Origin: Methylovirgula ligni
GTDB taxonomy: Bacteria; Pseudomonadota; Alphaproteobacteria; Rhizobiales; Beijerinckiaceae
Direction: 5' to 3'
NCBI RefSeq assembly: GCF_004135935.1
Contig: NZ_CP025086.1
Location: 2,480,001 to 2,544,000 of the forward strand
DNA length: 64,000 nt
The notes below the pieces were generated by a model, which had not been told where the DNA came from, did not search any database, and saw only the letters and a program-made list of their open reading frames with translations. This document shows, one piece after another, positions 34,865-46,526 of this stretch (the stretch's first letter is position 1; each line of letters opens with the position of its first letter). The position numbers and the translations under genes were made by a program.

Positions 34865-35704
34865 CTAGCGAAGCTCATTTACGGAGAAATGCTCGCCGAC
34901 ATCCGTTCGCGGAACGTGATAGGCGGCAAGGATAGCATCTATCTTCGGCCGCTCGCTTTCCAGAATGGCCTCTATCCTCTCTTTGAAGTCCGGCTCGTGG
35001 CGGCGCATGCCCATCGAAATATCGAATTGCATCGGCCATTGAGCGCCGTCGACTGCCGGCTCGACGAGTGCAAGCACCAACGGCTTCGGCTCCTTCCTCG
35101 CGAAATAGCCGGCGAGCGGCCCCCAGACAACCGCGACATCGACATCGCCGTCGGCGACCGCATCCATGATGGCGGCCGGCGGATTGGGCTTCTGATAATC
35201 GCCGTAGAGCATATAGCCCCGAATATTATCGATGATGCCTCGTCGCGCCAGCGCGTGTGCAGGCGGCGTGTTCATCGCGTCATTGCCGACCATCTGAACG
35301 CCGATCTTCAATTTGCGAAGCTGCGGATCGTCGTAGGATGTGATCTTCAAATTCCGGTCGGCGCGGGTGACGAAGACGTAGCTCGACCGATAATAGGGCC
35401 GTGACGTCGCCAGCATATCGACCGCCGAGGCCACTCCGGGCCAGAGATCGCACAGACCGGCCTTCAACGTATTGCGCACATAGCCGCGGCGCTGCGCCCA
35501 CCACGTGTAGACCACTCTCTCGTTCATATCCTTGGCGACGAGAGTGACGATTTTGTTCTCGAAGCCTTCGCCTTTGTCGTTTGAGAAAGGCAGATTGTTG
35601 GGATCGGCGCAGACACGCAAATCCGTTGCCTGCGCCGCCGTTGTGGCGCCAAATATGAGGCCGAGAAAAATAAGCATGATGCGAAATCGCACGAAATCCC
35701 TCAT
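34865..35704 (-). CDS. MoxJ-type substrate-binding-like protein of quinoprotein dehydrogenase
   Basis: A 279-residue exported protein starting at ATG 35704, fixed by an ATGA overlap with the upstream cytochrome stop. A signal peptide (about 1-27, ending AAQA) is followed by the binding-protein fold with DLRVCADPNNLPFSNDKGEG, the hallmark of the quinoprotein-dehydrogenase-associated (MxaJ/XoxJ) family. YVRNTLKAGLCDLWPGVA and VVWGPLAGYFA are further matches. In methylotrophs MxaJ/XoxJ interacts with the dehydrogenase and may help mature it; it is not a true importer component. Last gene of the operon. Confidence 0.9.
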   Translation of the reverse strand: MRDFVRFRIMLIFLGLIFGATTAAQATDLRVCADPNNLPFSNDKGEGFENKIVTLVAKDMNERVVYTWWAQRRGYVRNTLKAGLCDLWPGVASAVDMLATSRPYYRSSYVFVTRADRNLKITSYDDPQLRKLKIGVQMVGNDAMNTPPAHALARRGIIDNIRGYMLYGDYQKPNPPAAIMDAVADGDVDVAVVWGPLAGYFARKEPKPLVLALVEPAVDGAQWPMQFDISMGMRRHEPDFKERIEAILESERPKIDAILAAYHVPRTDVGEHFSVNELR

Positions 35705-36261
35705 GGCGATGGGGCGCCTTCCTGCGGGTTCGTCTCGAGCGAGGCCGGTCCCGGCGCCGCCGCGACGGGCTTGGTCGGAATGGGCACTTTTGCGGCATTC
35801 GTCTCCAGCGATTTCACATAAGCGGCAAGCTGCCAGATCGCCGAACTCGGCAAAATACGGCCCCATGTGGGCATGCCATTCGGGCGCCCCTGATAGATCG
35901 AGGCGTAGATCTGGTCGATTTGGCCGCCGTAGAGCCAGACGGAATCATCGAAGGCTGGGCCGATGCCGCCAGCGCCATGAAAATGGCAACCGGAGCAATT
36001 GTACCAATCGAACAATTTTGCACCGATGGCGATCGCCTGCGGATTATTTTCGTATTGGTTGTCGAGTGGATCGGGCGGCGGTGCCTTCTGGCCATTGGCA
36101 AAAAGCCCCGTCACCGGCACATCCAGCACGCTGCCTTGCGGGCGCGCCTGCGCGGCCGGCTGGTTGGGATCGGCCGTTGCACTCTGGCAGACGGCGATGG
36201 GCGCAGCGAACACCACCGCCGCAGCGGCCGCGCCTTTAAGATGGCGGCAAGGCAAAGACAT
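35701..36261 (-). CDS. Periplasmic c-type cytochrome of the PQQ dehydrogenase operon
   Basis: A 186-residue monohaem cytochrome c. The signal peptide covers about residues 1-31. The haem motif is CSGCH near residue 90 in WYNCSGCHFHGAGGIGP, and a likely axial Met sits in RPNGMPTWG near 130. It is the natural first electron acceptor (a cytochrome cL/XoxG-like role) for the dehydrogenase whose stop overlaps its start by 26 bases. Sequence similarity to classical MxaG is not obvious by eye, so the role rests mainly on gene context. The tail is Pro/Ala-rich. Confidence 0.88.
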   Translation of the reverse strand: MSLPCRHLKGAAAAAVVFAAPIAVCQSATADPNQPAAQARPQGSVLDVPVTGLFANGQKAPPPDPLDNQYENNPQAIAIGAKLFDWYNCSGCHFHGAGGIGPAFDDSVWLYGGQIDQIYASIYQGRPNGMPTWGRILPSSAIWQLAAYVKSLETNAAKVPIPTKPVAAAPGPASLETNPQEGAPSP

Positions 36262-38110
36262 AGAGCGTTCCTCCTGCTGCGGTTTTCAGCTTCAGGTCAG
36301 CCATTGCGCCGACAAAGCCCAGCGCGCCGGTCGGATCGCGCGGGTCAAGAGCGCCAGGGACAATAGCGCCGGACCAGCCCCCGACACCGGAGAGGATGGC
36401 GATATATTCGCGCCCGTCCGGTCCGCGATAAGCGATCGGTTGGCCGATGATCCCCGAGCCTGTCTTGAACTGCCACTTAAGCGCGCCGGTCTTCGCATCG
36501 ACTGCTTTAAACCAGCCATCCATCGTTCCGTAGAAGACGAGATCCCCGGCGGTGGCGAGCGTGCCGCTCCAGGCCGGCAAGTCTTCCCTGATTTGCCAGA
36601 CCGGCTTGCCGGTTTCGACGTTCCAGGCGCTGACCTCGCCGCGGAAGCCGCCAGGGCCCGGCTTCATCACCACATTGGCGCCGACGTAAGGCGTGCCGGC
36701 GATATAATTCGCCTGCACATTCTCCCAATCCATGCAGAGATTTTCATGCGGGATGTAGAGATAGCCGGTACGCGGCGAAAAGGAGGAGGGTTCCCAGTCC
36801 TTCGCCCCGGATGCGGTCGGGCAGATATCATGCACGATCGTGCCAAGTTTGGTGTTCTTGTCGGGATTGACCACCGGGCGCCCGGTTTTCTTGTCGATCG
36901 TTTTGATCGAATTCACATAGCCGTAGGGATGCGCCGAGACGATCTCGCCCGTGGTGCGATCGAGCATGTAGAGATACCCGTTGCGATCCGGGTGCATCAG
37001 CACTTTGCGAATTTTGCCGTCGATCGGCACATCGAGCAGAATGATCTCGTTGATGCCGTCGTAATCGTGCTCGTCGTGCGGGTTATATTGATAATACCAT
37101 TTGGCCGCACCGGTATCCGGATCACGCGCGAAGATGCCGTCAGTCCAGAGATTGTCGCCGGGTCTTTGTTCGGCATTCCATGGGCCGGGATTAGCAGCTT
37201 CCTCGTAAAGCAGATTGAGGTCGGGATCGTAGGCCATCCAGCCCCAATTGGAGCCGCCGCCTATCTTCCAGGCTTCCGGCGGCCACGTGCTGACGCCGAG
37301 ATCCTTGCCGCGATCCTGCGTATAGAACGGATGAAAATCCGGGCCGATCAGCACATCCTTGTCAGGGCCGGTATGGAAAGCTTTCCAGACGATTTTCCCC
37401 GTATTGGCATCGAGCGCCGTCGTCCAGCCGCGCACGCCGAATTCGCCGCCCGAGACTCCAACCAATACCTTGTCCTTCACCAGGAAGGGCGCCATGGTGA
37501 TGCTCTCGCCCTTGCTGATATCGCCGAGCTGGGTGATCCAGACAGGTTTGCCCGTGTTCACGTCGAGCGCGATCGTGCGGCCATCGAGCGTATTGAAATA
37601 GAATTTGTTCTGCCAGAAGACGCCGCCGCGATTGACGGTGTCGCAACAGGCGACACCTTGCGAAGCCGCGATTGGCGGCGGTTCGTATTTCCACTTCATC
37701 GGCGCGCCAGGCTTGGTCAGATCGAGTGCATAGACCCAATTTGGCCACGGCGTGACGATGTACATTGTATTGTCCGCGACAATTGGCGCGGCTTCCTCGC
37801 CATGCGTCGTGCCAGTCGAGAAGGTGAACTCGACGCGCAGGTTTTTAGCGTTGTCGCCATTGATCTGGTTGAGGGCCGAGTAGCGCGTCGCCGCGTCGTT
37901 CTTGGCCGGCATTGTCCATTGGCCATCATCGGGGGGTGCGGCGGACGCCGGTGGCTTCGGCAGATCCGCCGCCGCCGGCGCCGGGCTCTGCGCGAAGGTT
38001 GCGCTCGAAAGGCTCAGCAAGACGGCGATGCCAAGGAGCGCCCTCGTACCGCTCAGGCGCGCGAGCTCAGCGCAGCGTATAGAGATAGGCTGTGATGTCT
38101 TTAGCCTCAT
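36236..38110 (-). CDS. PQQ-dependent alcohol dehydrogenase, lanthanide-type signature
   Basis: A 624-residue periplasmic quinoprotein of the methanol/ethanol dehydrogenase family with a signal peptide (about 1-40). It is an eight-blade propeller with repeated tryptophan-docking motifs such as GKPVWITQLG and GALKWQFKTG. The vicinal disulfide Cys155-Cys156 is in GVACCDTVN. Metal ligands are Glu223 (GGEFGVRG), Asn308 and catalytic Asp349. Asp351, two residues later (HDYDG), is the extra aspartate found in lanthanide-dependent XoxF/ExaF/PedH enzymes and missing in calcium MxaF. Arg376 lies in HPDRNG. Substrate could be methanol or a longer alcohol. No MxaI-like small subunit follows. Confidence 0.93.
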   Translation of the reverse strand: MRLKTSQPISIRCAELARLSGTRALLGIAVLLSLSSATFAQSPAPAAADLPKPPASAAPPDDGQWTMPAKNDAATRYSALNQINGDNAKNLRVEFTFSTGTTHGEEAAPIVADNTMYIVTPWPNWVYALDLTKPGAPMKWKYEPPPIAASQGVACCDTVNRGGVFWQNKFYFNTLDGRTIALDVNTGKPVWITQLGDISKGESITMAPFLVKDKVLVGVSGGEFGVRGWTTALDANTGKIVWKAFHTGPDKDVLIGPDFHPFYTQDRGKDLGVSTWPPEAWKIGGGSNWGWMAYDPDLNLLYEEAANPGPWNAEQRPGDNLWTDGIFARDPDTGAAKWYYQYNPHDEHDYDGINEIILLDVPIDGKIRKVLMHPDRNGYLYMLDRTTGEIVSAHPYGYVNSIKTIDKKTGRPVVNPDKNTKLGTIVHDICPTASGAKDWEPSSFSPRTGYLYIPHENLCMDWENVQANYIAGTPYVGANVVMKPGPGGFRGEVSAWNVETGKPVWQIREDLPAWSGTLATAGDLVFYGTMDGWFKAVDAKTGALKWQFKTGSGIIGQPIAYRGPDGREYIAILSGVGGWSGAIVPGALDPRDPTGALGFVGAMADLKLKTAAGGTLYVFALPPS

Positions 38111-38432
38111 CGTCCTTCAACTCCATATTCGGCATTGCGTTGCCCGGTACGATCGCTTGCGGGTTCTCGATCCACGCGCGCATATTGTCCGGGGTGTTCG
38201 GCAGAAAGCCCGCGATAATGGTACGCTCGGCCATGTGATCGAGCGGAGGCCCGACATGGCCATCGGCGCCGGAGATGCCCGGAATTTCGTGGCACGTTCC
38301 ACAGCCGGACTTGACGATCAGCTGCGCGCCCTGTTGCACGTCACCGGAGGGGCCGGGCGCGGCGGCGCTTTGCCAGACATCGCAGCCGGCGAGACAAGGC
38401 AACGCCGCCAAGACTATGAGAAAGAACCTCAT
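38067..38432 (-). CDS. Lipoprotein cytochrome c
   Basis: A 121-residue monohaem cytochrome. ATG 38432 overlaps the upstream stop (ATGA). The signal ends in the lipobox LAGC (Cys near residue 17), so it should be anchored to the membrane by lipid. Haem binds at CGTCH in IVKSGCGTCHEIPG near residue 46, and the axial Met is probably in AMPNMELKDDE. The C-terminal pattern ITAYLYTLR is shared with the cytochrome domain of oxidase subunit II. It may relay electrons from the soluble cytochrome to the oxidase. Confidence 0.9.
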   Translation of the reverse strand: MRFFLIVLAALPCLAGCDVWQSAAAPGPSGDVQQGAQLIVKSGCGTCHEIPGISGADGHVGPPLDHMAERTIIAGFLPNTPDNMRAWIENPQAIVPGNAMPNMELKDDEAKDITAYLYTLR

Positions 38433-38872
38433 CCTGCGCATTCCGGCACCATGAAAAGCGCGAGCGTGTTGAAAAGAATGGCGACGAAGAAACCGAGGCC
38501 GGTCATCACGCCCCAAAGCGCCAGAAAGCGTGTGCGGCCCTCCCCGGCTTCGATCGCGTGGCCCGCATCGCCCTGATGCTCCGTCCGCGTCACCTGCCAG
38601 TGCCGATAGGAGAGCGTTGCGGCGGCGAGTGCGAGAACGGCCGCCAAAAGGTTGAGCAGCAGAATGACGGCCCAAGCGGAATGCCACGCGGGCACGTTCA
38701 GCGGTGTCGCGCCGGGATAACAGGTGTGAGACGCGAGGGCGAAATTAACGACGAACTGAAGTCCCCAAACGACCGGGCCCGTGAAAAGCCCCAAAAAAAG
38801 CATCGTGGCCGACACATTGTCGCGATGCGGAGCCGGGTGCGCGATCGTTGAAGGTGGATTGCCGTCCTGCAT
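38429..38872 (-). CDS. Small membrane protein of the oxidase operon (CoxP-position)
   Basis: A 147-residue protein with three predicted helices (about 24-45, 65-90 and 115-140), starting at ATG 38872 five bases after the subunit III stop. No known domain is recognised. Its place, after subunits II, I and III, matches that of coxP in the coxMNOP operon of Bradyrhizobium, so it may be an accessory subunit or subunit IV analogue. That is inference from position; the sequence alone shows only a hydrophobic protein with paired cysteines near 50 and the C-terminus. Confidence 0.75.
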   Translation of the reverse strand: MQDGNPPSTIAHPAPHRDNVSATMLFLGLFTGPVVWGLQFVVNFALASHTCYPGATPLNVPAWHSAWAVILLLNLLAAVLALAAATLSYRHWQVTRTEHQGDAGHAIEAGEGRTRFLALWGVMTGLGFFVAILFNTLALFMVPECAG

Positions 38873-38877
38873 CGCGT

Positions 38878-39477
38878 TCACCTGAGGTATGGAGATATGT
38901 AGAACGTGACGAATACCGCGAGCCAGACCGCGGTCACAAAATGCCAGTAGGCGGCCATGATCACGGTCGGCGCATCGCGCCGCGCATCGACATAGCCGAG
39001 CAGTGACCACACTAGGACTGCCGCGACGCCCACGATGCCAAATCCAAGATGGAGCAGATCAAGGCCGGCGGCGGTGAAATAAATCGAACTGTAAAGACCA
39101 CTCGTGAGCGAAAACGGCTTGCTTTGCCATTCGAAAAGCTCAAGCGCGATGAAGGCGAGGCCTAGCCCGATGCCGATGGCGAGGCCGAGCCGATGCTGCA
39201 TCTCGATGCCCCGCTGGAGGCCTTGCTGCGCAAACCACAGCGCGCCGCTGCTGAGAAGCATGACGATCGTTGCCGGCAGCGCATAGGCAAAACTGGGATG
39301 CGGCTCGGGACTCCATGAGGCCGGAAGTTGCGCCGCATAGTAGAAATAGCTGAACAGCAGATAGCCGAAGAGCGCGCCTTCCGTCGCGATGACGCAGAGA
39401 ATGCCGTACCAGCCCGAGGCGCGGTGATCGACGCTACCGACGGGCAGCGCTTGTTCGACGCTTGCCGTCTCGCTCAT
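38878..39477 (-). CDS. ctaE: Cytochrome c oxidase subunit III
   Basis: A 199-residue, five-helix subunit III of the short bacterial type. Features are GWYGILCVIATEGALFGYLLFSYFY near residues 22-46, ELFEWQSKPFSL near 112, HLGFGIVGVAAVLVW and the C-terminal YWHFVTAVWLAVFVTFY. The conserved Glu and His that contact subunit I are seen. ATG 39477 overlaps the subunit I stop. It should stabilise proton uptake in subunit I. Confidence 0.92.
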   Translation of the reverse strand: MSETASVEQALPVGSVDHRASGWYGILCVIATEGALFGYLLFSYFYYAAQLPASWSPEPHPSFAYALPATIVMLLSSGALWFAQQGLQRGIEMQHRLGLAIGIGLGLAFIALELFEWQSKPFSLTSGLYSSIYFTAAGLDLLHLGFGIVGVAAVLVWSLLGYVDARRDAPTVIMAAYWHFVTAVWLAVFVTFYISPYLR

Positions 39478-41429
39478 GACGCAGGCTCCTCCGAGGGAGG
39501 CTGCACGGTTTGGCCGAGCCCGCGCTCGGGCCAAAGCCAGATGAGGATCGCAGCGACCGTCACAAGGCAGCCGACGGCCGTCAACGGCCACAGACGCGAC
39601 GGGATCAAAAGGCCCGCGAAGACCGCCGATATGCCGAGTGTGAGAACGAAGGGCGCCGGACTGTCGAAGGGCATTTTCAGGATGACATCCGGTTCGCTGT
39701 CGAGCGCGGTCGTGCCGATCGTTTCACGCGCGTGATCGAGGATGAGTCCCTCTTCGAGCGAGGACGTGCCATGGCCTTCCCCGAGACGCTGTTCCCACAG
39801 CGGATGCCGGCTCGCGACCGTCGGCAGGACAGCGAAATTATAGGGCGGCGGCGGCGACGGCACTGACCATTCGAGCGTCGGCGCATCCCATGGATTGGCT
39901 CCGGCCGCGCGGCCCTGACGCAGACTCACCAAGACATTGACGAAAGTCAGCAGCACGCCGATCGCCAAGACGAAGGCGCCGATGGTGGTGATCATGTTGA
40001 GCGTATCCCAGCCCATATGCGCCGGATAGGTGTAGACGCGGCGGGGCATCCCAAGCAGGCCGGTCAAGTGCATCGGCAGGAACGCCACGTTGAAGCCGAT
40101 GAACATCGTCCAGAAGCTCGCCATGCCGAGCTTTTCGCCCAGCATCTTTCCGGTGAATTTCGGAAACCAGAAATAGAGGGCGCCCATCACCGGAAAGAGA
40201 TTGATGCCGATCAGCACGTAATGAATATGCGCTACGACGAAATACGTGTCGGTCAGTTGCCAATCGACCGGAACGGACCCGGTCATGAAGCCGCTCACGC
40301 CACCGATGACGAACAGGACGATCATGCTCGCGAAGAACAGAAAGGCGGTGGTGATGACCGGCCGGCCAAGCCAGATCGTCAAGGTCCAGGCGAAAACCGC
40401 GACCGCACTCGGAATCGCAATGATGATCGAGACGCCGCTGAAGAACGAGAGCGCCAGCGTCGGGAGGCCCGTCGCGAACATATGATGCACCCAGACGCCG
40501 AAGCCGAGTGTCATCGTCGCGAGGGTCGAGAGCACGACCGCCGTATAGCCGACGAGCGGCCGGCGGCAAAAAACCGGCAGCGCGTCGGATACCATGCCCA
40601 TTGCCGGCAAGACGATTGCGTAGACCCAGGGATGCGCGAAAATCCAGAAGAGATGCTGCCAAAGCAACGGCTGGCCCCCGGCGGCGACGTCAAAGAAATG
40701 CGTACCGAAATTGCGGTCGAGCCAAAGCATGAAGAAGGCGAGGCTGACGCTCGGCACGACGAGGATGTTGGCAGCCGAGGCCGTGAGCGTTCCCCAGATC
40801 ATGATCGGCACGCGGTTGATCGACATGCCCGGCGCACGAAGCCGCAGAAAGGTGACGACGAAATTGATCGAGCCGACCGTTGTCGAAATGCCGAGAAAGA
40901 TCATTCCCAGCGCGTAGAAGTCCATATTGAGGCCGGGATTGAACTCCTTGTTCGCGTAGGGAACGTAGTTGAACCAGCCGTCGTTCGGTCCGGCGCCCAT
41001 CGCAAAGCCGGTGTACATAAAGATGCCGGCTGCAACATAGAGCCAATAGGATAGGGCATTGACGCGTGGAAACGCCATGTCGCGCGCGCCGAGCAGAAGC
41101 GGCCATAAATAATTGGAAAATCCCGACAGGATCGGCATGGCGTAGAGGAAGATCATCGTCATGCCATGCATCGAGAAGAGCTGGTCGTATTGCTCGGGCG
41201 TCAGCAGAGTCTCGTTCGGCCGCGCGAGCTGCGCGCGCATGATCAGCGCCTCGATGCCGCCGAGCACGAGGAACACGAAAGCCGTAACAATGTAGCGGAT
41301 GCCGATCTCTTTATGATCGACGCTCGAGAACCAGCCGAGAATGCCGGACTCAGTTTCCCATATCGTCGCGAGCCTCTGACGATAGTCTGGCGAGGCCGTG
41401 CCCGTAACAGGAATACGTTCAAAGGTCAT
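39474..41429 (-). CDS. ctaD: Cytochrome c oxidase subunit I, divergent proton-channel residues
   Basis: A 651-residue haem-copper oxidase subunit I. Haem and copper ligands are intact: His88 (SMHGMTMIF), His266 with cross-linking Tyr270 (AHPWVY), His315-His316 (VHHMF), and His401 and His403 (VVAHIHYV). The D-channel entry Asp117 (RDMAFPR) is kept. The usual Glu of HPEVY is Trp268, and the K-channel Lys of TGIK is Ala344 (SAVAVFAW). About 110 extra C-terminal residues add two helices (about 595-640). It resembles the alternative CoxN-type oxidases of rhizobia. The enzyme should reduce O2, but proton pumping is doubtful. Confidence 0.95.
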   Translation of the reverse strand: MTFERIPVTGTASPDYRQRLATIWETESGILGWFSSVDHKEIGIRYIVTAFVFLVLGGIEALIMRAQLARPNETLLTPEQYDQLFSMHGMTMIFLYAMPILSGFSNYLWPLLLGARDMAFPRVNALSYWLYVAAGIFMYTGFAMGAGPNDGWFNYVPYANKEFNPGLNMDFYALGMIFLGISTTVGSINFVVTFLRLRAPGMSINRVPIMIWGTLTASAANILVVPSVSLAFFMLWLDRNFGTHFFDVAAGGQPLLWQHLFWIFAHPWVYAIVLPAMGMVSDALPVFCRRPLVGYTAVVLSTLATMTLGFGVWVHHMFATGLPTLALSFFSGVSIIIAIPSAVAVFAWTLTIWLGRPVITTAFLFFASMIVLFVIGGVSGFMTGSVPVDWQLTDTYFVVAHIHYVLIGINLFPVMGALYFWFPKFTGKMLGEKLGMASFWTMFIGFNVAFLPMHLTGLLGMPRRVYTYPAHMGWDTLNMITTIGAFVLAIGVLLTFVNVLVSLRQGRAAGANPWDAPTLEWSVPSPPPPYNFAVLPTVASRHPLWEQRLGEGHGTSSLEEGLILDHARETIGTTALDSEPDVILKMPFDSPAPFVLTLGISAVFAGLLIPSRLWPLTAVGCLVTVAAILIWLWPERGLGQTVQPPSEEPAS

Positions 41430-41438
41430 GGCACAGCC

Positions 41439-42395
41439 TCATTGCAGCGTGCGCAGATAGGTAGTGACGGCGGTGAGTTCCGGGCCTGACAAGTAGAGAT
41501 CCGGCATGTTTGTTCCGGGTTTCTGCGCCTGTGGATCGGCGATCCATCCCGCGAGCGCGCCGGGTGTGTTCGGCAACGTGTCGGCGGCCAGGGTTTCGCG
41601 GCTCATGAGATGTGTGAGGTCCGGCGCGACCGATCCACCCGCCATGCTCCCACGCACCGTGTGACATTCACCGCAGCGCTGAACGAATATGTTCTGGTCG
41701 TTCACCAGAACCGGCGACGATGGTGTCGCGGCGGGTTTCAACTGCGCGTCCAGCCATCTCTGGAAGTCCGATGGCGGTTCGGCGATGACGAAGAAGGCCA
41801 TATGAGCGTGCTGCTGGCCGCAATATTCGGTGCATTGGCCGCGATAGCGCCCAGGCTTGTCGGCCTCGAGCCAGGTGACATTGGTTTGGCCGGGGATCGT
41901 TTCGGTCTTGCCGGTCAGCGCCGGGACCCAGAACGAATGAATGACGTCCGCGCCGATCAACTGGATTCGAACGGGTCGGCCGACAGGAATATGGAACTCG
42001 TCCGCGGTCGTGAGGATTTTGCTCGGGTCGCCGTTGAGATAGCGCGCCTTCCACCACCATTGCTGTCCGGTGATCTCGATTGCGAGCGGCATGGCACCGC
42101 TGGGCGGCGCGTTGATCTTCGCCAGAACCTCCATCGTCCAGATGGCGGAAATGACGAGCACGATGGTCGAGACGCCGACCCCGAATCCAAGCCAGCCCAA
42201 GCCCTCGCCACTGCGCTGCACCGCGACGGCGCGGACCGTTGCGTCTCGCGGCGCGCGGCGGACGAGAACACCGAAAAAAACAAGCGCGGTCACGATGACG
42301 ACGACCAAAATGGAGATGATCAGTAGCCCCCAGGTCAGCGCGGTGACAGGATAGGCTTTGGCGCCGAAGCCGCTGAGATAGGAGAGCGGCGTCAC
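41439..42395 (-). CDS. ctaC: Cytochrome c oxidase subunit II with fused cytochrome c
   Basis: A 318-residue subunit II starting at GTG 42395 (GTGA overlap with ctaG). Two N-terminal helices (about 18-45, 67-92) anchor the CuA cupredoxin domain, whose ligands are all present: His153, Cys188, Glu190, Cys192, His196, Met199 (IHSFWVP and CTEYCGQQHAHM). A C-terminal cytochrome c domain follows with CGECH at 241-245 and a likely axial Met in GTNMPDL. This is the caa3/CoxM-type fusion and allows direct electron entry from periplasmic cytochromes. The first nine residues lack a signal peptide; the first helix serves for insertion. Confidence 0.95.
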   Translation of the reverse strand: MTPLSYLSGFGAKAYPVTALTWGLLIISILVVVIVTALVFFGVLVRRAPRDATVRAVAVQRSGEGLGWLGFGVGVSTIVLVISAIWTMEVLAKINAPPSGAMPLAIEITGQQWWWKARYLNGDPSKILTTADEFHIPVGRPVRIQLIGADVIHSFWVPALTGKTETIPGQTNVTWLEADKPGRYRGQCTEYCGQQHAHMAFFVIAEPPSDFQRWLDAQLKPAATPSSPVLVNDQNIFVQRCGECHTVRGSMAGGSVAPDLTHLMSRETLAADTLPNTPGALAGWIADPQAQKPGTNMPDLYLSGPELTAVTTYLRTLQ

Positions 42396-43234
42396 CGTGT
42401 ACCGGCCCGCGCCGCCTGCGGCTCGATTGCGACCCGCACGATGTCATTCCAGAGAATGAGCGTGGAAATAACGAGAAAGACGATGCAGCCCGGCACCCAC
42501 ATAATGGCGCCGCCGAGTTGCTGATCCTGCAATGGCGTCAGGCCCCAGGCGGCTGTGGTCAAGAGGTGCGGCGCATAGAACGGCCGTGACGCGAAGGTGA
42601 TCAGCGCACCGAGGAAGCCCATTTGAATGGATGAGACAATACCCGCGAAGACAACCGATACGGCGGACTCCGGCGGTGAATCCAACAGACTCGACCAAAG
42701 CCAGACGGCGGCGCCAAAGATCGTCAGGTGCATGGTCCAATAAGCAAATGTGCTCCGGAACGTTTCGGCATAAGGCGCCGGCGAATGCCAGAACCAGATC
42801 GATATCGCGAACAGGCCCGCGGCGCAGAGCGGTGCCGCGGCGGAGTTCGGCTGAAAAGAGCGGCGCCATAAGAGGCCGATCAGCGCCAGTGGACGCCCGG
42901 CGGCGACGAGCGGGGCCGCAATCAGGGCGAGGACCATGTGCTGACTGACGCGAGCCGAAAATAGCGACACGGAGAGCGGACAGAGTGGCGAAATCAGCGC
43001 CGCGGCTGTAATCGTCCAACCGAGGTAGAAGAGCGCTTGCCGCCATCGCGGAACAGATGGCCCGGCGCGGTCGGAGCCGACTGCTAGCGCATACGCAACC
43101 GCACAGATGATAAGAAAAGCGATGAGTGCGGGATCCAAATTCCACCGCGACCAGAGGCCGTCTGGAGTAGGGGGAAGCCCGCAATAAGGGGCGGACGCCG
43201 CAGAGTAAGCGCCAAGGATACCCTCAGTGGCCAT
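42392..43234 (-). CDS. ctaG: Cytochrome c oxidase assembly factor, CtaG (caa3 type)
   Basis: A 280-residue polytopic membrane protein of the caa3_CtaG family, with about seven helices. Visible signatures are SPLCPLSVSLFSARVSQHMVLALIAAPL, the WFWHSPAPYAETF segment and GFLGALITFASRPFYAPH. His residues in these helices are thought to assist copper insertion at the CuB site. It is the first gene of the operon; GGGAG lies 8-12 bases before the ATG, and the operon promoter must be upstream, in the stretch now occupied by the decayed secretion genes. Confidence 0.9.
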   Translation of the reverse strand: MATEGILGAYSAASAPYCGLPPTPDGLWSRWNLDPALIAFLIICAVAYALAVGSDRAGPSVPRWRQALFYLGWTITAAALISPLCPLSVSLFSARVSQHMVLALIAAPLVAAGRPLALIGLLWRRSFQPNSAAAPLCAAGLFAISIWFWHSPAPYAETFRSTFAYWTMHLTIFGAAVWLWSSLLDSPPESAVSVVFAGIVSSIQMGFLGALITFASRPFYAPHLLTTAAWGLTPLQDQQLGGAIMWVPGCIVFLVISTLILWNDIVRVAIEPQAARAGTR

Positions 43235-43529
43235 GATTGACTCCCAACGCTCTGACCATGGACCAGCTTCCGGAACTCCAGACGAACTCCAGCGGGACCG
43301 GGAAGGTTTCGCTCTCTCACATGAAAAGTTTTCTCATTTTCGTGAGCGCGGCTGGCATGTCTCCGCAAAGCAAGAGCCCAGGCGAGGCCCCGGCTCTGGT
43401 TATTCTTCGCTTCAGCTTACGCCGCGCTGTTGATCTCGCTTTCAGTCCATGCCGTCAGCTTGTGATCTGTCTCGCGCCCTTCCTCAAAAGTTTCCTGCAA
43501 GATCGTCGCACATTCGGCGGCGCGGATGA
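43235..43529. other. Region between oxidase operon and decayed secretion genes
   Basis: No supported gene. It should contain the promoter of the minus-strand oxidase operon. A plus-strand frame runs through 43237-43500, but it matches no family until the ABC remnant begins near 43530. Confidence 0.4.
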
Positions 43530-43904
43530 GTTCATCAGTAAAATGCCGCTGGGCTACGATACGATGATAGAGGAGCGGGGGGCAATTTATCTGGGGGGCA
43601 GCGGCAGCGCATTGCGATTGCACGCGCCTTGGCGACGGACCCACCGATCCTGATCTTTGACGAAGCGACAAGCGCTCTCGATTATGAGAGCGAAAGGGTG
43701 ATCCAAGCCAATATGCGCCAAATCGTCAGAAACCGCACCGTCATCATCATCGCTCGTCGTCTGGCGGCCGTATGTCACTGCACATTCCTTATAGGAATGG
43801 TCGACGGCAGAATTGTAGAAGCCGGAACGCATGATTCGTTGCTTCAAAGGAAGGGCCTTTATGCGCGGCTTTGGGCGCTTCAAAACGAGCAGAGCTTAGT
43901 CTGA
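43530..43904 (+). pseudogene. Truncated, frameshifted type I secretion ABC ATPase (HlyB-like)
   Basis: Only the C-terminal part of the nucleotide-binding domain remains. [21 protein letters not shown] is read in one frame and, after a run of six G at about 43577-43582, [17 protein letters not shown] and [15 protein letters not shown] in another. One more G would restore the usual ERGGNLSGG order. The transmembrane part and Walker A are absent, so the gene is dead regardless of the G-run. Its TGA overlaps the ATG of the hlyD remnant (TGATG). The switch region reads [10 protein letters not shown], where the usual His is Arg. Confidence 0.85.
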
Positions 43905-45344
43905 TGTCTGGCGAAACAAACGCGATCAGCGAGCGTCAGGCCAAGCCCCGCATCCGGATCAGGAATTCCTCCCCGCTGCCCTCGAAATTCTCGAAACGCC
44001 CGCTTCACCGATCAATATGGCGCTTATAACCGTCATCTGCAGCTTCGTGGTGGTCGCTCTCGGCTGGAGCTACTTTGGGCGCATCGATATCTTAGCTGTA
44101 GCGCCGGGAAAGATCCGCCCGTCCAGTCTTGTGAAAGTCATTCAGCCTCTGGAGACAGGTAAGGTCATCATTCTCGAGGCGAAAAACGGTATGCACGTCA
44201 AAGCTGGCTCGATCCTCGTCGAAGTAGAGCCGGCCGAAGCAATTGCTGATGAAGCTGACATGGCATCGGCTTACGAAAGCTACAAAGCCGAGGCATTACG
44301 ACGGAACGCGGCCATCGGAGCAGCAAAATCAGCAGAACTCTCAAGCCCATCTGCAATTGTCTGGCCAGAGGATGTTTCGTCGTCGGTGCGCAGCCGCGAG
44401 CAGGAAGTGCTGAATGATGATTTAGCGCAACTCGCCGCGCAGCTGCGAAGCCTTGACGCGCAACTCGCGGAAAAGCAGGCAGAGAAAGTAGGACTTGAGG
44501 CAACAATTGAATCTCAGGCCGCGCTCGTTGCCACAATGCAAGAGCGCGTAAGCATGCGCCAAACCTTGCTGGATCGCGGCGCAGAGGCACGATCGTCGGT
44601 TATCGACGCGCTGGAGACAATGGAATACCACAGAACGAGTCTGATGACCTTGAAAGAGCAGCTTGCGGAGGCCGTCGCCAATATGCGTGTCCTCGTACTC
44701 GAGCGTCAGAAGACGATTAGCACGTTCATTTCTGACAACAGCCAGAGATATGCTCAAGCGGCGCAAGAAAGAGACGATTACGAACAAAAGCTCATCAAGA
44801 CTCGCATCAGGCGGCAGCACATGATTCTCGCGAGCCCGGTCTCCGGTACTATAACGGCCTTGTCGATAACCACGTTGGGCCAAGTGATCACGACCGGTCA
44901 GGAGGTCATGCGTATTGTACCCGATGACTCTCATCTTGAAATCGAGTGCTACCTTCAGAACAGAGATATAGGGTTTGTCCATGCTGGGCAGATAGCACAG
45001 GTCAAAGTCGAGTCTTTTCCGTTTACACGTTATGGGACCATCAGCGCTCGTGTCACGAATGTTGCGAGCGATACGATCCAGAGCCTGAAGCCCAAGCCGG
45101 TGAAGGCGACCCAATAAAGGGAGAAAGCCTCTTTGACAGCACGGGTGCTGAACACACGCAAAATCTTGTCTTTCCTGTTACTTTGTCGCCAAGGCAACTT
45201 TATGTATCCGCGGACGAAGGGGATATCCCTCTGTCCTCGGGGATGTCCGTAACCGTCGAAATTAAAACTGGTAGTCGGCGTATTCTCGAATATGTGTTTT
45301 CTCCACTGGTCGAACTCGCATCCAATGCAATGAAGGAAAGGTGA
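43904..45344 (+). pseudogene. Frameshifted HlyD-family membrane-fusion protein
   Basis: The gene is in three frames. From ATG 43904, RQAKPRIRIR is read in one frame. From about 43957, DQEFLPAALEILETPASPIN and a membrane helix run through the long helical hairpin and barrel to VASDTIQ. From about 45075, PEPEAQAGEGDPIKGE continues to LFDSTGAEHTQNLVFPVTLSP and the final VEIKTGSRRILEY. Together they make a near-complete HlyD adaptor with two shifts. The longest frame (44017-45117, 366 residues) could give a truncated protein lacking the last barrel strands. It was the partner of the ABC remnant. Confidence 0.85.
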
Positions 45345-45950: not shown

Positions 45951-46526
45951 TCAGCTCAACGCTACGAGTCGGCGTTGCCCGTTTGTATGGCCATCGATAT
46001 AGGCCTGCGTCACTTCAATCGACTTGTGGCCGGCAAGAAGCTGAACATCTCGTAAGCTGCAGCCAGTGCGATGCGCGTTGCGTGCGGCATTCGTGATGAA
46101 CGTGCGGCGGCCAGAGTGGGACGAGCAGCCGCCGAACTCGAGCGCTTTGAACAGTGTGACGAACCAGTTGACGATACTGTTCGGCTGCATCGCGCCGCCG
46201 CGAGCCGAACGGATAACAGGGCCGATCGCGACGCGTCGGCCTTTCAGCTTGACGAGTGCACACTTCAAGTCGCTATGCATCGGAATGCGGCGGCCGCCGC
46301 GCTTTTTGGCAATTTCGTCTCTGACTTCGATAAAGCCGCTGAGCTGGCCGCGGGCATCGAGAACCATCGACCAGTCGAGACGGGCGATTTCGCAGGCGCG
46401 CAGGCCAGCTTTGACGGAAAGTAGAATGATGACGCGGTCACGGACGGTAAAATCCGTGCCGCCGACATAAGCCAGCATGCGGCGCAGCATGGCCGGCGTG
46501 ATCGCCTTCGCTTGACGTCCCGGCAT
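45951..46526 (-). CDS. Tyrosine recombinase, catalytic domain only
   Basis: A 191-residue site-specific recombinase (phage integrase family). Catalytic residues are visible: Arg43 (GLRACEIARLDW), a Lys in the KKRGGRR turn near 75, His137-x-x-Arg140 (SHSGRRTF), His167 (LAGHKSI) and nucleophile Tyr176 (QAYIDG). The N-terminal SAM-like DNA-binding domain of full integrases (usually about 100 residues) is missing, as in some plasmid and transposon-borne short recombinases. It may be active with a partner or be a domesticated or truncated integrase. It suggests the surrounding DNA was acquired. Confidence 0.88.
   Translation of the reverse strand: MPGRQAKAITPAMLRRMLAYVGGTDFTVRDRVIILLSVKAGLRACEIARLDWSMVLDARGQLSGFIEVRDEIAKKRGGRRIPMHSDLKCALVKLKGRRVAIGPVIRSARGGAMQPNSIVNWFVTLFKALEFGGCSSHSGRRTFITNAARNAHRTGCSLRDVQLLAGHKSIEVTQAYIDGHTNGQRRLVALS

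Follow-up and report, generated by a model that had tools for sequence, protein, structure and literature searches.

Gene clusters described around the alcohol dehydrogenase XoxF3 in Acidobacteria, Gemmatimonadetes and Verrucomicrobia combine genes for the oxidase subunits CoxI-III, CtaG, a cytochrome c, XoxG, XoxJ and a small hypothetical protein; XoxF3 occurs widely in soil, and no biochemical data on it existed at the time of that review (PMC10875860). Here we examine a cluster of this kind in a stretch of 64,000 nucleotides from Methylovirgula ligni (contig NZ_CP025086.1, positions 2,480,001 to 2,544,000; hereafter the window), in which nine genes join a pyrroloquinoline quinone (PQQ) dehydrogenase of the XoxF3 type to a haem-copper oxidase. 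Judging from its gene content, this operon probably encodes a chain that would carry electrons from an alcohol through XoxF3 and cytochromes c to CuA and an atypical A-type oxidase, bypassing the bc1 complex. The pairing of XoxF3 with an oxidase is of an already known kind, and what goes beyond it is an oxidase lineage with altered channel residues. The genes are, in transcription order:

34865-43234, minus strand: the whole nine-gene set, ~8.4 kb
42392..43234, minus strand: ctaG, the first gene, caa3-type oxidase assembly factor (CuB insertion); PF09678, 138 bits, cut-off 27.7
41439..42395, minus strand: coxB, oxidase subunit II with intact CuA motif CTEYCGQQHAHM and a C-terminal fused haem-c domain (CGECH); TIGR02866 above cut-off, with PF00116 and PF00034
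39474..41429, minus strand: coxA, oxidase subunit I; TIGR02891, 681 bits, cut-off 671
38878..39477, minus strand: coxC, oxidase subunit III, 199 amino acids; PF00510
38429..38872, minus strand: orf5, three-helix membrane protein of a family without a name; alignment of 34 sequences
38067..38441, minus strand: cytL, lipoprotein cytochrome c (lipobox LAGC, CGTCH); PF00034 and motif
36236..38110, minus strand: xoxF3, PQQ alcohol dehydrogenase with the lanthanide-type Asp-Tyr-Asp motif; TIGR03075, 625 bits
35701..36261, minus strand: xoxG-position cytochrome c (CSGCH); PF13442
34865..35704, minus strand: xoxJ, periplasmic quinoprotein-associated binding protein of the MoxJ_2 type; TIGR03871, 294.8 bits

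All nine reading frames were found where the initial annotation of the window had placed them, with profile matches that agree with the identities it had given, and its count of three haem-c proteins is borne out by three single haem-c motifs, at the C-terminus of subunit II (CGECH), in the lipoprotein (CGTCH) and in the XoxG-position cytochrome (CSGCH). The packing it had described, six overlapping junctions and two within 9 bases, was also recovered: computed with ATG starts wherever present, the distances in transcription order are -4, +9, -4, +5, -13, -44, -26 and -4 bases, that is, overlaps of 4, 4, 13, 44, 26 and 4 and gaps of 9 and 5 bases. If the fifth gene, orf5, begins at a GTG instead, its junction also becomes a 4-base overlap. 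Promoter-like and terminator-like sites did not depart in number from the shuffled expectation. The nine genes are probably co-transcribed.

A functional link between the dehydrogenase and the oxidase is strongly supported by comparison of genomes, because their linkage is conserved. We collected the loci of 80 relatives of the dehydrogenase, of which 56 have at least 7 kb on both sides (full flanks) and span Pseudomonadota, Acidobacteriota, Gemmatimonadota and Verrucomicrobiota. Subunit I lies within 9.5 kb of xoxF3 in 55 of these 56 loci, and ctaG, coxB, coxA, coxC, orf5, xoxG and xoxJ are all present in 47. Among the linked subunit II genes that were checked, 20 of 21 carry the CuA motif and 21 of 21 the haem c. 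Moreover, the window's family was sampled with 149 genomes: wherever a subunit I there reaches 67% identity to that of the window, an XoxF3-type gene adjoins it, and nearly all XoxF3 loci in this sample have a subunit I alongside. The initial annotation had proposed a search for the same gene order elsewhere, and that order recurs in Beijerinckiaceae, Caulobacteraceae, Sphingomonadaceae and gammaproteobacteria; the conserved splitting of the two parts in relatives, which it had named as evidence to the contrary, was not seen. Its remark that methylotroph clusters usually do not hold a complete oxidase stands for other dehydrogenase clades but not for XoxF3, given the 55 linked loci and the published clusters (PMC10875860). 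No oxidase adjoins the MxaF locus of this genome or any of its three XoxF1-like loci. That the pairing with an oxidase is unique is ruled out, as it is both published and near-universal in XoxF3. That two operons were pushed together by chance in this genome is scarcely credible: beyond the alternative gene orders found elsewhere nothing speaks for it, whereas the overlaps are interleaved, the same order returns in the families just named, and recurrence of the gene set in four phyla rules it out.

The dehydrogenase itself falls into the XoxF3 clade with 100% branch support, apart from XoxF1, XoxF2, XoxF5 and MxaF, whose sequences from solved structures served as references in a tree rebuilt without the very long branch L011. 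The same clade contains the sequence of Methylobacterium oxalidis, whose sole XoxF has been named XoxF3 (PMC8561711). Aligned to the XoxF2 structure 4mae, the window's XoxF3 has the metal-site ligands E, N, D and D, and the extra lanthanide-type aspartate (Asp-x-Asp) is found in the window and in all 80 loci; the MxaF of this genome has Ala at that position. The enzyme is probably lanthanide-dependent, its most likely substrate is methanol, and the genome encodes the PQQ synthesis protein PqqE. In Methylosinus trichosporium, XoxF3 increases with cerium (PMC12482762). Six PQQ dehydrogenases of the family are encoded in the genome, namely XoxF3, a trio clustering with XoxF1, an MxaF and a divergent protein. 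Among methane-oxidiser genomes, three xoxF1 copies, two of them clustered, are reported only for Methylovirgula ligni BW863 (PMC12482762), and the copy number thus points to that species or a close relative as the probable source. The sixth, very divergent enzyme (577 amino acids; G000 C1:888811-890334, L011/L138) has its own cytochrome and J-type gene.

In the proposed chain, XoxF3, with a lanthanide and PQQ, would oxidise the alcohol (most likely methanol) in the periplasm and pass the electrons to the XoxG-position cytochrome c, which would hand them to subunit II either directly or via the membrane-anchored lipoprotein cytochrome. Within subunit II they would move through the cytochrome domain and CuA and then reach the haem-copper site and O2, without passage through the bc1 complex. 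CtaG would insert copper into the oxidase, and XoxJ would take part in maturation or binding of the dehydrogenase. Since three further haem-copper oxidases and a bc1 Rieske protein are also found in the genome, the branch from XoxF3 to its oxidase would be an additional one.

The subunit I sequences linked to XoxF3 form two well-supported clades in the tree, A (that of the window, a single branch) and B, and the oxidases that lie between them are mostly unlinked to XoxF. Clade A loci are arranged as ctaG-coxBAC-orf5-(cytL)-xoxF-xoxG-xoxJ, with xoxF first or the two halves facing each other in some relatives, and clade B loci mostly as xoxF-xoxJ-xoxG-coxBAC-orf5-ctaG-cytL. Placed on the XoxF tree, the clade-A label requires seven changes, at least four of which are forced by well-supported branches. 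At L013, a dehydrogenase 75% identical to that of the window faces an oxidase with only 48% identity in subunit I, a value like those of clade B; L013 was left out of the tree because its reading frame is split. Since the two trees conflict and the pairing is still kept, the modules have been re-paired repeatedly, which rules out strict co-evolution of oxidase and dehydrogenase and supports a functional link between them. The disagreement of the trees can also be read otherwise, as can the bc1 Rieske protein and the three other haem-copper oxidases: the genes could be co-transcribed and not dedicated, with XoxF3 feeding the general cytochrome c pool and any oxidase, the oxidase also taking electrons from bc1, and the operon forming a shared regulatory unit with no closed chain. 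Such pool sharing leaves unexplained why linkage is kept in 55 of 56 loci despite the exchanges, and we regard it as rather unlikely. XoxF-like proteins (42-44% identical) adjoin clade-B oxidases at L113, L114 and L116; those at the first two have lost the Asp-x-Asp metal motif (HGVSG, ARGG), which suggests a propeller without metal chemistry.

Several observations weigh against the preferred reading, a chain from XoxF3 to the linked oxidase. Phenylobacterium deserti (L019), the sole exception among the full-flank loci, carries xoxF3 and xoxJ, but the 10 kb to either side contain neither an oxidase nor xoxG. The xoxF3 of Methylocella silvestris is barely expressed and does not respond to lanthanides (PMC9291206). 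Among 398 genomes sampled across the phylum, five others have a clade-A oxidase, three of them beside XoxF and two without an XoxF match (L146:6572-12216 and L147:5780-11673), where the neighbour of the oxidase is a cytochrome c of several haem domains, a triple-haem protein. At L040, whose flank on one side is 5.7 kb long, xoxFGJ was seen and no oxidase. Exclusive association of the clade-A oxidase with XoxF3, true in the family sample, is thus false in two of the five further genomes, and what these oxidases share may be that a periplasmic dehydrogenase supplies their electrons. The initial annotation had spoken of a dedicated chain with its own oxidase: the linkage in 55 of 56 loci supports a functional link and thereby part of this reading, but "dedicated" and "own" are too strict in view of the two lineages, the exchanges between them and the two XoxF-free genomes.

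The oxidase of clade A differs from known A-type enzymes in its proton channels, which we tabulated for 94 subunit I sequences, including 21 aligned from clade A. The D-channel site altered in the window is:

40626..40628, minus strand: TGG codon of Trp268 in HPWVY; from the sequence and alignment with solved oxidases (HPEVY)

Trp268 takes the place of Glu286 (R. sphaeroides) or Glu278 (P. denitrificans) at the end of the D-channel, and this replacement of HPEVY by HPWVY is found in 21 of 21 clade-A sequences, that of the window included, and in both clade-A oxidases without XoxF. The K-channel lysine is replaced too, by Ala344 in the window and by Ala, Thr or Ser throughout the 21 sequences, all of which keep the haem and CuB histidines and the cross-link Tyr. 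The D-channel entrance and polar lining are retained in clade A, with the entrance aspartate, Asn139, Ser201 and Asn207. Misalignment as the source of the missing glutamate is ruled out, as the alignment runs without gaps from the CuB His through the motif to the cross-link Tyr and as the aligned mycobacterial structures, which keep both the glutamate and the K-channel lysine, also put E at that site. The window's coxA has, in addition, a C-terminal extension with two hydrophobic stretches.

Clade B presents the reciprocal pattern: the glutamate is kept in 53 of 53 sequences, and the entrance aspartate is lost in 52 of the 53, where Asn or Ser now stands. Both residues are kept in 16 fused or unlinked relatives, one of which, L104, does adjoin an XoxF3-type gene, divergently. 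The canonical K-channel lysine is missing in clades A and B and in the fused or unlinked relatives. All clade-B, fused and unlinked subunits I carry Gln instead, with an extra glutamate in helix IV, and the canonical K-channel is therefore absent in the whole group. A second subunit I of this genome (L133, G000:C1:71000-80000) keeps HPEVY and also misses the K-channel lysine (PLAILFFCW).

The subunit I fold (TIGR02891), the six His ligands and the helix VI cross-link Tyr are those of an A-type oxidase; at the K-channel positions Lys354 and Thr351 of that type, the window has Ala and Ser. In the A2 subtype helix VI is of the YSHPxVY type, and the window reads FAHPWVY, clade A as a whole having F or W, then G or A, then HPWVY, without YS. 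The D-channel ends in Glu278 (P. denitrificans numbering) in the A1 subtype, and a Tyr replaces this glutamate in A2 (PMC3084760); the window and its 20 clade-A relatives all have Trp there. B-type enzymes have no D-channel residues and an alternative K-channel of Thr, Ser and Tyr; in the window the D-channel Asp and Asn are kept, and the Ser291 position holds Ser, not Tyr. To judge by these residues, the window's oxidase is A-type in overall similarity, yet fits none of A1, A2 and B as defined by their channels (PMC3084760).

In A-family enzymes every pumped proton travels through the D-channel (PMC8079940), so that altered or absent pumping is reasonable to infer here, from two lineage-level events: the window's oxidase may rely on a different pumping route, give a lower yield or not pump. 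It is possible, if somewhat doubtful, that XoxF-fed oxidases have twice lost different D-channel carboxylates and that each lineage is a natural A-family enzyme with reduced, rerouted or absent pumping. The conserved Trp alone is no proof of lost pumping, and polar residues conserved only in clade A might form another proton route. Literature searches returned no description of oxidases without the D-channel glutamate or the D-channel, a weak negative since subscription journals lay mostly outside their coverage. Loss of both the D-channel glutamate and the K-channel lysine with all metal ligands kept, together with a second lineage devoid of the entrance aspartate (52 of 53), would also suit an oxidase that scavenges oxygen or acts as an electron safety valve, protecting the dehydrogenase or disposing of excess electrons without conserving energy. 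However, a useless channel would not be expected to conserve its entrance and polar lining as the Trp lineage does, and the extra helix IV glutamates of clade B might compensate; we consider this role improbable.

Among the remaining components, the cytL lipobox LAGC carries Asp at +2. The XoxG-position cytochrome is no classical MoxG, reaching 36 bits against the MoxG profile TIGR03872 (cut-off 148). The J protein exceeds the cut-off of 212 of TIGR03871 (MoxJ_2) and, with 164.9 bits, stays below that of the true-MoxJ equivalog TIGR03870 (258.1). The orf5 product has three long predicted membrane helices (AlphaFold predicted local distance difference test score 87) and two cysteines, C51 and C145, that are invariant in the alignment; Pfam and NCBIfam searches gave no match, and naming it by fold was dropped after a PDB fold search without a match at E below 1. 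Because the first cysteine comes after helix 1 and the second after the last helix, the predicted topology would place both on one side of the membrane, probably the periplasmic one. As orf5 comes after coxC in both oxidase lineages and also in oxidase loci without XoxF, it belongs with the oxidase and not with the dehydrogenase; it probably serves the oxidase as an accessory or in its assembly, and is likely to be the counterpart of the small hypothetical protein in the published XoxF3 clusters.

On the 3' side, the operon is followed by a short-chain dehydrogenase gene. Upstream of ctaG, at 43237-45344 (plus strand) and 45951-46526 (minus strand) of the window, lie a phage-type integrase and remnants of a broken type I secretion locus, with pieces of an ABC transporter ATPase (recognised by eye) and a frame-shifted HlyD-type protein (Pfam).

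A near-constant oxidase partner indicates the probable destination of XoxF3 electrons and provides a defined gene set for expression. Moreover, the Trp-for-Glu oxidase is a natural, conserved counterpart of the mutations made to study proton pumping in cytochrome oxidase, and its H+/e ratio bears directly on whether a working enzyme needs that glutamate.

The operon shares a PQQ dehydrogenase, a cytochrome c and a J protein with the xoxFGJ operons of XoxF5 and the MxaFI clusters of methylotrophs; from clusters of that type it differs in its oxidase, which the XoxF1-like and MxaF loci of this same genome do not have alongside. With the caa3-type A-family oxidases (Thermus 2yev; mycobacterial 7rh5 and 6adq) it has in common the fold and ligands of subunit I, the CuA and fused haem c of subunit II and the assembly factor CtaG, but Trp stands for the channel glutamate and the K-channel lysine is gone, both of which the aligned mycobacterial structures keep. 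The operon resembles the published XoxF3 clusters (PMC10875860) in the dehydrogenase clade, the kinds of parts and their linkage, all parts being present within 8.4 kb of the window. In those clusters the small protein lies between CoxIII and CtaG, as in the clade-B type of order, whereas the oxidase genes of the window precede xoxF, and its subunit I, about 43-51% identical to those found with the other gene order, represents another lineage, in which Trp has replaced the D-channel glutamate.

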